Below, piece after piece: positions 758 through 23,652 of a stretch of DNA of 42,410 nt. Source of the DNA: a bacterium (GTDB lineage: Bacteria > Hydrothermota > 32-111); the NCBI GenBank assembly GCA_028698175.1, contig JAQVDU010000004.1:1-42410 (forward strand), written 5' to 3'. Positions within the stretch are counted from its first letter, which is position 1; each line of letters begins with the position of its first letter. Made by a program: the position numbers and the translations under genes. The notes beneath the pieces were generated by a model. The model was not told where the DNA came from. It did no database searches and was given only the letters and a program-made list of their open reading frames with translations.

Positions 758-873
758 AAAACAAATTTGTTTCTTTAGTAGGGGACGGGGTAACATTTTT
801 ATCACGATAAAAATATCACTAGTCACGAATCGTAAATGAGTAGAAAAAAATCGATGATTTTAAGGAGAAGGTG
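758..873. other. Intergenic region with palindromes and a GGGGACGGGG element
   Basis: It lies between the tail ends of two convergent genes. It holds a 14-bp palindrome (AAACAAATTTGTTT, 759-772), the element GGGGACGGGGTAAC starting at 781, and a hairpin with 9-bp arms (795-803 and 806-814). A weak AT-only hairpin at 847-861 could serve as a terminator for the minus-strand operon. The GGGGACGGGG core recurs elsewhere in the window. Confidence 0.5.
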
Positions 874-12634: not shown

Positions 12635-12970
12635 GGGGGCGAAATTGGTCTCGACAGGGAGAGCAGTTGTGCAGGGGAAGCATGCCGAGATTGCTGGGGT
12701 CTCGTTAAACACCGGCAAAAAAACAAACGGCGAAAATCTCGCAATCGCTGCTTAATGCAGCAGGGTTTGTCGACTCCTGTCAGGGGTATCGGTAAAACCC
12801 TCATTATCCTGACTGCTTGCGTGCTCTGCCGCGAAGCGCGCATTAAGATAAGCGGCAAAACTCTCTTCTAGTTGCACCGCGCGCGAGGAGAGTCAAAAGG
12901 CGGTGCTAAGCATGTAGAAGGACTGCTCCACTCTCTTTGGACGCGGGTTCAACTCCCGCCGCCTCCACCA
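12635..12970 (+). ncRNA. ssrA: tmRNA (transfer-messenger RNA)
   Basis: Rescues stalled ribosomes by acting first as alanyl-tRNA and then as mRNA. The 5' end GGGGGCGAAATTGGTCTCGA is the classic tmRNA start. The 3' end GCGGGTTCAACTCCCGC is the T-arm, followed by CGCCTCC, which pairs with GGGGGCG (one G-U), then ACCA. CCA is encoded. The tag frame runs from about 12714 to the TAA at 12753-12755 and would give GKKTNGENLAIAA after the non-encoded alanine. The terminal AA fits protease-tag rules, while -LAIAA differs from the common -ALAA. The resume codon GGC is inferred by reading back from the stop codon. Total length is 336 nt, normal for a one-piece tmRNA. Confidence 0.95.
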
Positions 12971-12975
12971 CTGCT

Positions 12976-13204
12976 TTAGGGACGGTGGTTGAAATAGTTG
13001 AAGTGACAAAATCGCATATCTAAGTATTTTTAATTTAATACTTAGATATGATTTATGAAGGAATTTGGATATGAAATTCTTTACAAAATTCAAATAAAAA
13101 AAAGTGAGTGTTTTAGAATAAGCAAAATTCTGAAAACATCATCAATAGGTATATTTTGAATTGTTATTACACTGAATTTCAACTATTTCAACCACCGTCC
13201 CTAA
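12976..13204. mobile_element. MITE-like element with 27-bp perfect terminal inverted repeats
   Basis: The ends 12976-13002 and 13178-13204 are perfect inverted repeats of 27 bp (left end TTAGGGACGGTGGTTGAAAT...). Inside is another hairpin, 14-bp arms CATATCTAAGTATT (13015-13028) and its complement (13037-13050). The 229-bp body is AT-rich and has no coding frame of its own. It sits five bases after the ssrA CCA end and eight bases before the -35 box upstream of nfnA. The GGGACGG core matches solitary elements near 781, 19764 and 22924. REP elements mobilised by RAYT (IS200-like) transposases are the nearest known category, but the transposase is not in the window. Confidence 0.7.
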
Positions 13205-13212
13205 GATAAGTA

Positions 13213-13241
13213 TTGACAGAAACGGGGATTTTTGAGAGAAT
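13213..13241 (+). promoter_or_regulatory. Candidate promoter of nfnAB
   Basis: A perfect TTGACA (13213-13218) is followed 17 bp later by a weak GAGAAT (13236-13241). A long leader then leads to AGGAGG before the ATG at 13270. The -10 match is poor, so this may be an activated promoter. Confidence 0.4.
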
Positions 13242-19013: not shown

Positions 19014-19743
19014 CAATCTCGAAAAGACCATAAAAAAACTCAGAAAAGAGTGTCCGTGGGACAGAAAACAGACGCATAAAACGCTTCGAAAATATGCCAT
19101 TGAAGAGGCACATGAGCTTGCGGATGCAATCGACAAGAGAAATGACAAAAAAATCATGGATGAACTTGGCGACGTTCTTCTTCAGGTTATGCTCCATTCG
19201 GCTATTGCTGAGGAGAAAAAAAAGTTCACGATTCAAGATGTCATGGATAATCTTGATGAGAAGATGAAGAGGCGCCACCCGCACGTCTTCTCCGACGCAA
19301 AGGCAAAGACGGACAAGGATGTGCTTAAAAGATGGGTGGAGATAAAGAAAAACGAGAAAAACCACAATTCAGTGATGGATGAGATTCCGACATATCTTCC
19401 GGCATTGATACTCTCCTCAAAAATTCAAAGACGAGCATCCACGAAGAGGTTTGAGTGGGATGACGTCAGAGGCGTTTATGACAAGATTGAAGAAGAGGTC
19501 TTGGAAATAAAAGAAGCAAAGAGTAAGCAAGAGTTGGAGGATGAAATAGGAGATTTGCTATTTACAGTCTCTCATTTGGCTAACAGGCTTGGAGTTGACG
19601 GGGAGATGGCATTGAAGAAGGCAACTCTGAAATTCGCAAAGAGGTTCAAGAAGATGGAGAAGCTTATTGAAAGAGACAAAAAGAAGCTTGAAAGTATGAA
19701 TCTAAATGAGATGGACAAATACTGGAATAGGGCGAAGAAATGA
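18997..19743 (+). CDS. mazG: Nucleoside triphosphate pyrophosphohydrolase MazG
   Basis: Hydrolyses NTPs and dNTPs to monophosphates and pyrophosphate, a housecleaning and stringent-response-modulating enzyme. 248 residues. Two MazG all-alpha domains are visible. The first (about 12-110) has CPWDRKQTHKTL, EEAHELADAI and DELGDVLLQ, which give the EExxE and ExxD magnesium ligands. The second (about 140-235) has EEEVLEIKEA and DEIGDLLFTVSHLANRL. The linker carries the usual KRRHPHVF. It follows iscU with a 17-bp overlap and a GAGGAAGAG SD. A functional link to iron-sulfur assembly is not known; co-transcription may only reflect operon packing. Confidence 0.93.
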   Translation: MSKKFDNLEKTIKKLRKECPWDRKQTHKTLRKYAIEEAHELADAIDKRNDKKIMDELGDVLLQVMLHSAIAEEKKKFTIQDVMDNLDEKMKRRHPHVFSDAKAKTDKDVLKRWVEIKKNEKNHNSVMDEIPTYLPALILSSKIQRRASTKRFEWDDVRGVYDKIEEEVLEIKEAKSKQELEDEIGDLLFTVSHLANRLGVDGEMALKKATLKFAKRFKKMEKLIERDKKKLESMNLNEMDKYWNRAKK

Positions 19744-19763
19744 TAAATGCCATAAATGCCAAG

Positions 19764-19777
19764 CACCGTCCCCTGTA
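19764..19777 (-). repeat. Solitary GGGGACGG element
   Basis: On the minus strand the sequence reads ACAGGGGACGGTGC. It shares the GGGACGGTG core with the ends of the MITE-like element at 12976-13204. It lies in the short gap between mazG and uvsE. Confidence 0.5.
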
Positions 19778-22923: not shown

Positions 22924-22939
22924 GGGGACGGGGTATACC
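22924..22939 (+). repeat. Solitary GGGGACGGGG element
   Basis: GGGGACGGGGTATACC, nearly the same as GGGGACGGGGTAAC at 781. It lies between the MFS gene hairpin and the mazEF promoter. Confidence 0.55.
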
Positions 22940-23034
22940 TTATTACCTTTTCAAATTGACAAAGATAGATTTACATTAAATCAAACAGGAATGGGGGGAT
23001 TGTTTATACTCTACATATTATATCAAACAATGGC

Positions 23035-23084: not shown

Positions 23085-23324
23085 ATGAACACAAAAATAA
23101 ATGCATGGGGCAACAGCCTTGCAGTGAGAATACCGAAGAACATACTTAAGGAGCTTAAGCTGAAGGAGAATGACATTGTCACAATCGAGGAGGAAAACGG
23201 CTCAATAAAAATTCATCCGTCCAAAAAGAAGGTGAGTTTGAATGAGCTTGTCTCAAAGATTAAGGCTGATAATATTCATAGGGAAATAATCATTGATGAG
23301 GAATTGGGAAATGAAGCGTGGTGA
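23085..23324 (+). CDS. mazE: MazE-type antitoxin (AbrB/SpoVT domain)
   Basis: A 79-residue antitoxin that neutralises MazF and probably represses the operon. Residues 1-45 form the swapped-hairpin DNA-binding domain: INAWGNSLAVRIPKNIL matches the MazE/AbrB signature (WGNSLAVRIPK), followed by LKENDIVTIEEENGSI. The acidic C-terminal tail (about 50-79, ending IIDEELGNEAW) is the segment that in MazE wraps along MazF. GGAGG is seven bases upstream. The gene overlaps mazF by 14 bp. The perfect palindrome upstream is the expected binding site. Confidence 0.92.
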   Translation: MNTKINAWGNSLAVRIPKNILKELKLKENDIVTIEEENGSIKIHPSKKKVSLNELVSKIKADNIHREIIIDEELGNEAW

Positions 23325-23652
23325 TTACGTTCCGGAGAGAGGAGACATTGTCTGGCTCGATTTCACTCCTCAGGCAGGGCATGAACAGCGTGGAAGAAGA
23401 CCTGCAATAGTTATAAGCCCTGCTCTTTATAATGGCAAGACAAACCTCGCGCTTTTTTGTCCGATAACTTCAAAAACAAAGGGATACCCCTTCGAAGTAA
23501 TAATTCACCTTAAGGACTTAAACGGAGTGATACTCTCTGACCAGATAAAATCAATGGACTGGAAGGTGAGGAACGCAAAACTTATTTGCAGAGCAGATAA
23601 AAACACTCTCGAAAGAGTAATGTCTCTTGTTGAATCATTGATTTTTAGTTGA
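23311..23652 (+). CDS. mazF: MazF-type endoribonuclease toxin
   Basis: A 113-residue sequence-specific mRNA interferase of the PemK/MazF family. The start at 23311 (MKRGDYVPERGDIVW) aligns with E. coli MazF; an ATG at 23293 would add six residues and lacks a better SD. Core features are GDIVWLDFTPQAGHEQRGRRPAIVIS, where the RRP is the catalytic Arg loop, CPITSKTKGYPFEV with the conserved Thr/Ser, and DQIKSMDWKVRNAKLI. All key positions are present, so it is probably active. It overlaps mazE, giving coupled expression. Its stop codon lies inside a 17-bp direct repeat. RNA recognition sequence cannot be deduced. Confidence 0.92.
   Translation: MKRGDYVPERGDIVWLDFTPQAGHEQRGRRPAIVISPALYNGKTNLALFCPITSKTKGYPFEVIIHLKDLNGVILSDQIKSMDWKVRNAKLICRADKNTLERVMSLVESLIFS

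Follow-up and report, generated by a model that had tools for sequence, protein, structure and literature searches.

A probable TIRtron-derived MITE behind the tmRNA gene of a Hydrothermota bacterium

The element and its ends

The 229-bp element that adjoins the tmRNA gene ssrA in the window studied here, a stretch of 42,410 nucleotides from a bacterium of the Hydrothermota, is very probably a non-autonomous MITE of a TIRtron family, sharing its 27-bp ends with an 896-bp element that encodes a TIRYT. As these ends and the motif TGACAAA next to the left one are common to all copies and to the 896-bp element, we consider the window element best read as a TIRtron MITE. A first-pass annotation had described perfect 27-bp inverted ends, an internal hairpin with 14-bp arms and spacings of five and eight bases to the neighbours, and all of these were found as described. 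The features are as follows.

12976..13204, + strand: the whole MITE, 229 bp; its left (gene-upstream type) end adjoins ssrA
12976..13002, + strand: left terminal inverted repeat, 27 bp; bases 2-27 are the same in 8/8 ends (4 elements, own genome)
13003..13011, + strand: left-end-specific subterminal bases GTGACAAAA, matching the transposase-upstream end of the 896-bp element except at the first base
13015..13050, + strand: internal hairpin with A/T-rich, perfect 14-bp arms (13015-13028/13037-13050) and an 8-nt loop
13175..13177, + strand: right subterminal AAT (ATT from the tip), common to the right ends of all four elements
13178..13204, - strand: right terminal inverted repeat, 27 bp, a perfect 27/27 match to the left arm
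12635..12970, + strand: tmRNA gene ssrA, the upstream neighbour (ARAGORN; Rfam RF00023)
13213..13241, + strand: promoter-like site ahead of the downstream gene (TTGACA, 17 nt, GAGAAT), a consensus match only

Thus five bases separate the end of the tmRNA gene (12970) from the start of the element (12976), and the TTGACA at 13213 lies eight bases past the element's end. Across 300 Markov shuffles of the 400-bp region, the longest inverted repeat with arms at least 100 bases apart was 13 bp. The longest ORF lying fully within the element is 34 aa, so that no gene is apparent in it, in agreement with the earlier description. The hairpin recurs, by eye and in a decayed form, in the 227-bp copy described below, and only by its innermost base can the right subterminal AAT be told from the left end of the 896-bp element.

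The ends had also been said to share GGGACGG with solitary elements elsewhere in the window. This heptamer is enriched there, with 8 occurrences vs 2.0 expected and none of 100 shuffles reaching 8, and two of the eight are the element's own ends. The likeness to solitary elements is one seen by eye and concerns the ends of other families, at three of the occurrences (782, 19766 and 22925).

782..820, + strand: solitary end like that of the ssrA-adjacent TIRtron family of the sister species G001 (by eye)
19740..19772, - strand: solitary end of another family, GGGGACGGTGCTTG... (likeness by eye)
22924..22955, + strand: solitary end of another family, GGGGACGGGGTATACC... (likeness by eye)

A solitary GGGACGG end is followed, at 23086-23652, by a two-gene pair that by eye has the look of an AbrB/MazE-like and PemK/MazF-like toxin-antitoxin system.

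The family and its transposase

In the element's own genome (G000; 1.96 Mb in 150 contigs, with the window copy on C37), the 27-bp end was matched nine times at up to 3 mismatches, while the reversed control gave 0 matches. Eight of these ends pair into four elements, C37 (229 bp), C46 (217 bp), C61 (227 bp) and C130 (896 bp), and the ninth is a decayed copy of ~155 bp at C56. The family that the first-pass annotation had suspected does therefore exist in this genome, where the element is not unique: three copies of 217, 227 and 229 bp lack a transposase gene, and the decayed copy and the 896-bp element stand beside them. The end was absent from the 99 other genomes searched, with up to 2 mismatches allowed, and the exact end was absent from viral contigs.

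The 896-bp element (C130:2607-3502) has a TIR of 28 bp and carries, in leftward orientation on its contig, the gene of a 271-aa protein that matches Pfam Y1_Tnp (PF01797) over the cut-off (E=1.9e-12). The NCBIfam model for the REP-associated tyrosine transposase REP_Tyr_transpos (NF047646), with a curated cut-off of 80 bits, scores this protein at 69.3, that of C129 at 68.3 and that of C22 at 80.0, which equals the cut-off, and the match to the NCBIfam IS200 model is far under its cut-off. The HUH histidines H60 and H62 and the tyrosine Y119 are invariant in the six aligned rows. On a C-terminal helix-turn-helix extension, as in subclass 2.1 of these proteins, HTH_23 (E=0.097) and RepB (E=0.083) both stay short of their cut-offs, and the C-terminus is present in only five of the six rows. 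The proposal of a MITE-like element is borne out, and the suggested check for a RAYT or other transposase with the same ends came out positive: a Y1/HUH gene of IS200-like, RAYT type lies between ends that the gene-less copies share. Further Y1 genes of a different, REP-like type occur in G000:C81 and C138 (L049, L050), with TGTAGAGACGTTGCA palindromes nearby.

When the transposase gene is read rightward, TGACAAA occupies bases 29-35 of the left end in C130 and in the three MITEs and is absent from the right end of C130, and at left-end base 28 the MITEs differ from C130. Over bases 2-30 the four right ends are identical. Since right and left differ in this stretch at base 30 only, the evidence for the polarity of the elements comes mainly from the left end.

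Fixed ends and drifting interiors

Compared pairwise, the three MITEs have zero differences in the left end (bases 2-35) and in the right end (2-30), while a three-way alignment puts the likeness of their interiors at 43%. In global alignment the C37-C61 interiors reach a score of 11 vs a best of 8 in 500 shuffles, with P 0.03 for C46-C61 and P 0.31 for C37-C46; local alignment found no similarity among the interiors bar a weak one for C61-C130 (P 0.02, with 12 comparisons made). Judged by alignment, then, the C37 and C61 interiors are clearly homologous, C46-C61 is marginal, and C37-C46 taken alone is not significant. In another family genome, G002, seven MITEs of 108-110 bp (L263, L266, L267, L273, L274, L276 and L277) share the ends of one G002 TIRtron, and here the ends are 96% alike vs 67% for the interiors. 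Six of the seven have, by eye, a common outer flank like CTATTACTNCTTCTCCTGAGTTCTC, and these MITEs may either target another repeat or spread along with one.

Change in the ends was followed in three transposon pairs of sister species, whose proteins share 60-64% identity and form strongly supported pairs in the tree. In these pairs 2, 3 and 7 of 30 columns are altered alike at both ends, and 1, 0 and 1 are end-specific. One pair lies behind tRNA-Ser in both species, and another behind tRNA-Ala in G000 and, in G001, behind a tRNA-Ala broken by two Ns (by eye). At the latter locus (G001:C97, L124), where the TIRtron adjoins the interrupted tRNA-Ala, an inverted copy of the tRNA-Ala 3′ end lies past the right end (by eye), an arrangement that may be an assembly fault or a real rearrangement of the target.

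The contrast of fixed ends with drifting interiors calls for an explanation. As the interiors are hardly alike, either the copies are old or their ends are kept by something besides recent jumping. From these comparisons we read the ends as being held identical by use, be it by selection for recognition or by repeated copying.

Placement behind RNA genes and other gene 3′ ends

G001 is the sole genome of the same genus in the set returned, and there ssrA is followed, 11-12 bases on, by a different TIRtron that is 989 bp long and has the head GGGGACGGTGTATC. Four window proteins encoded around ssrA had no match in the 7.5 kb around the G001 ssrA, so the neighbourhood differs and the window copy itself has no empty site there. 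The search for empty sites that had been suggested succeeded for the 896-bp element, whose flanks are continuous in G001 (69% identity over 540 query bases) with the element absent. The G001 orthologue of the site of another MITE, C6, holds a solitary end of the G001 ssrA-type family.

Other RNA genes are occupied in a similar way. A TIRtron lies 6 bases behind tRNA-Ala in G000, and TIRtrons lie 11-12 bases behind tRNA-Ser(GCT) in G000, G001 and G002, each co-directional with its tRNA gene. More distantly, TIRtron G001_C91 ends 90 bases ahead of the tRNA-Pro 5′ end, and the left end of the C46 copy of the window family lies 106 bases behind tRNA-Met. Among 168 typed ends and 120 RNA genes of four genomes, seven ends lie within 30 bp (9-26 bases) behind an RNA gene, all co-oriented, with 0 opposed ends and 0 ends at an RNA 5′ end within 30 bases; farther off, G004 has two opposed ends behind a tRNA, at 63 and 131 bases. 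Between 0.04 and 0.4 such ends would be expected behind RNA genes; the figure varies with how much of the genome can take an insertion, the higher expectations assuming 10-15%. The seven RNA genes are of four kinds, tmRNA (two species), tRNA-Ser(GCT) (three), tRNA-Ala and another tRNA-Ser, and several are orthologous, so that they are not seven independent events; counting four events, P is 7e-4 or less.

The RNA genes typed were 116 of the 156 tRNA matches of G000, G001, G002 and G004 and 4 tmRNA genes. The typed sites were 60/60 in G002, 60/67 in G001, 27/27 in G004 and, for G000 (87 sites counted), 19 hits of TAGGGACGGTG plus two C22 ends, which were entered in the knowledge that a tRNA was nearby and one of which is among the seven. 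A reversed control pattern gave 57, 34, 25 and 9 matches in G000, G001, G002 and G004, so that many of the 168 sites must be chance words.

Ends are also found behind genes other than RNA genes. Of 61 intergenic ends, 20 have a gene 3′ end no more than 30 bases away vs a null mean of 7.9, with 0/5000 draws as high, and one lies near a gene 5′ end vs 6.6. This test started from 88 ends, of which 27 were dropped (inside an ORF, no gene on the outer side, or one of four loci picked for an RNA gene); its loci were hand-picked from site lists, its ORFs were called mechanically, and two ends belonging to the same element do not count as independent. In C6 and C130, three tips in all provide the TAG stop codon of the neighbouring host gene (distance 0; L067 1503; L051 1503, 1659). 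Placement behind RNA genes appears to belong to a wider pattern, placement at the 3′ ends of genes. In 71 outer flanks no target motif of 6-8 bases stands out given the number of words tested; the flanks are A/T-rich beside the tip, and the top words are partly tRNA-derived. A 305-bp pair in G001 (C70:10177-10481, L256), whose ends are the same over 29 bases, surrounds a small, complete ORF that looks thioredoxin-like (MKIEILGTGCPKCKK..., by eye) and whose stop overlaps the right end; it is possibly a passenger gene, or simply a gene with two ends around it.

The wider TIRYT survey

For a wider view we took one genome per species and kept the best 80 of 572 relatives, from many phyla. A TIR score of at least 15 was reached by 54 of 74 testable loci vs 12 of 740 mismatched up/down pairs, and of the 59 loci with a score of at least 13, 47 carry a known head, each head being counted once (GGGACGG in 16, GGTCA[GA] in 31). 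For the Y1 elements of four family genomes, the score was at least 19 in 17 of 20 scored loci; 25 loci had been given and 5 were dropped because the script motif missed the ORF.

Across the 80 wider loci (585 kb), no credible tRNA or tmRNA neighbour was seen, with one doubtful tRNA (ARAGORN; all 80 loci scanned, 60 of them listed). G000 has 42 tRNA matches in 1.96 Mb, a density at which ~12 would be expected in 585 kb, where there are almost none; these 585 kb are thus oddly poor in tRNA genes, and the negative result on RNA-gene adjacency is weaker than it looks. A TIR together with an ORF upstream was present at 53 loci; 17 of these start no more than 60 bases behind a co-directional ORF and 2 no more than 60 bases from a divergent one. 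It looks as if placement behind a gene is general and placement behind an RNA gene is, as far as tested, local to the lineage. The site preference that the first-pass annotation had drawn from the position next to ssrA has support within the lineage; as a general trait of TIRYTs, RNA-gene adjacency was not found at the 80 wider loci.

Mechanism and alternative explanations

The two ends of the window element fold alone at 0 and -0.4 kcal/mol, and one end of the 896-bp element at -5.5 kcal/mol (2/200 shuffles as good), while the whole strand of the window element pairs end to end at -52.3 kcal/mol as DNA (z -12.5). Because neither window end folds alone, we infer an enzyme acting on paired single-stranded ends: the TIRYT would nick both ends when these are single-stranded and mutually paired, and the unit would be moved into open A/T-rich DNA just behind a gene, where landings would do little harm. 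Where an autonomous copy without a promoter lies co-directionally behind a tRNA or tmRNA gene, read-through could express its transposase. Left ends of 40-44 bases, without a promoter match before the start codon, are found in G000_C129, G000_C22 and G002_C54; that of G001_C63 measures 22 bases by the mechanical rule, and the start of G001_C60 is masked. A co-directional gene lies near 8 of 13 promoter-less TIRYTs vs 1 of 8 promoter-bearing ones, which is not significant (P=0.067) and includes a misfiled G001_C60 (masked start), a mechanical ORF as the neighbour of G001_C97 (its tRNA being broken by Ns) and three rows without an upstream gene in the stretch. As the link is absent at the 53 wider loci (6/24 vs 11/29), promoter borrowing is kept only as a speculative reading. 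A combined explanation, in which the promoter-less single-strand transposons of this lineage persist parked co-directionally behind tRNA and tmRNA genes by read-through from the promoters of these genes, and the two ends of each element, along with those of its MITEs and its solitary ends, are kept identical in a genome by repeated end copying (concerted evolution) while the interiors drift, is conceivable, and we regard it as doubtful.

That two solitary REP-like ends were inserted independently around unrelated intergenic DNA, without forming a unit, is improbable. Solitary ends are indeed common in these genomes and the interiors have no clear local similarity, but the three copies are close in length and have the same left/right polarity, and the C37-C61 interiors are homologous in global alignment. 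A functional ssrA 3′ module, such as the terminator or insulator that the first-pass annotation had considered or a processing stem, with inverted ends arising by chance, is very improbable: as RNA the region would form a very stable stem (-86.4 kcal/mol, z -12), yet the same element lies at loci without ssrA, a scan of the + strand found no terminator-like site, and the ssrA 3′ flanks of G002, G003 and G004, three of the five family genomes, have no such end within 260 bases. Nor was a conserved ssrA 3′ structure seen among the relatives examined, and the copy at ssrA probably rides along passively, without a function that the tmRNA needs.

The TA found at both tips of all four copies could suggest a MITE of a DDE-type insertion sequence, the type to which the IS982 family belongs, with TA as its target duplication. 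This reading is barely credible, as a gene was found between such ends in one element only, where its product is a Y1/HUH protein, and many ends of sister families start with GGGGACGG, without TA; the G001 empty site is uninformative on TA duplication, and no target-site duplication could be established for these copies.

Relation to known systems and significance

TIRtrons and TIRYTs were defined by Di Nocera et al. 2013 (PMC3733652), and 20 of 26 TIRYTs were placed in subclass 2.1 by Quentin et al. 2018 (PMC6006769), as given in the available passages of these papers. The elements described here agree with the TIRtrons of those passages in having a RAYT-like Y1 gene between long TIRs and in occurring as several elements per genome, each with its own TIR, the TIRs forming repeat families (reported for some). 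They differ in their heads, AGGGACGG in the window family matching 6/8 and GGGGACGG in sister families 7/8 of GGGGWSAS; that motif is itself shared by some TIRs only, according to the same passages (PMC3733652), and is thus not strictly defining. They differ further in that gene-less copies with left/right polarity are shown for the window family.

With the REPIN-RAYT system, as portrayed in the passages available (Bertels and Rainey 2011, PMC3116915; PMC8049555), they have in common that a RAYT-type gene serves inverted pairs of ends that are non-autonomous, and that related species retain orthologous transposase genes behind the same tRNA gene; unlike REPINs, the window ends have no self-folding hairpins and no GTAG at the tip, and their copy number is low. 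The Y1/HUH domain (PF01797) is shared with IS200/IS605, in contrast to which long terminal inverted repeats are found here instead of subterminal hairpins. In the general features of MITEs, the window element has no transposase gene, is under ~300 bp and shares its TIRs with an autonomous element. MITECca01 of Cardinium, so far as the passages available from its description go (PMC9769881), is similar in being gene-less, ~240 bp long and provided with the full element's ends and a short conserved left-end stretch, but its parent is of the IS982 family, whereas that of the window MITE is a Y1/HUH element.

TIRtrons are known from sequence surveys, and neither a target rule nor a worked non-autonomous partner appears in the available passages. 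Among the papers listed in a literature search that covers few subscription papers, we likewise found no report of TIRtrons behind tRNA or tmRNA genes. Several TIRYT families occur in the present lineage together with matched MITEs, an empty site and repeatedly occupied RNA-gene 3′ ends, and these features make target choice and end recognition in a little-studied branch of HUH enzymes directly testable.
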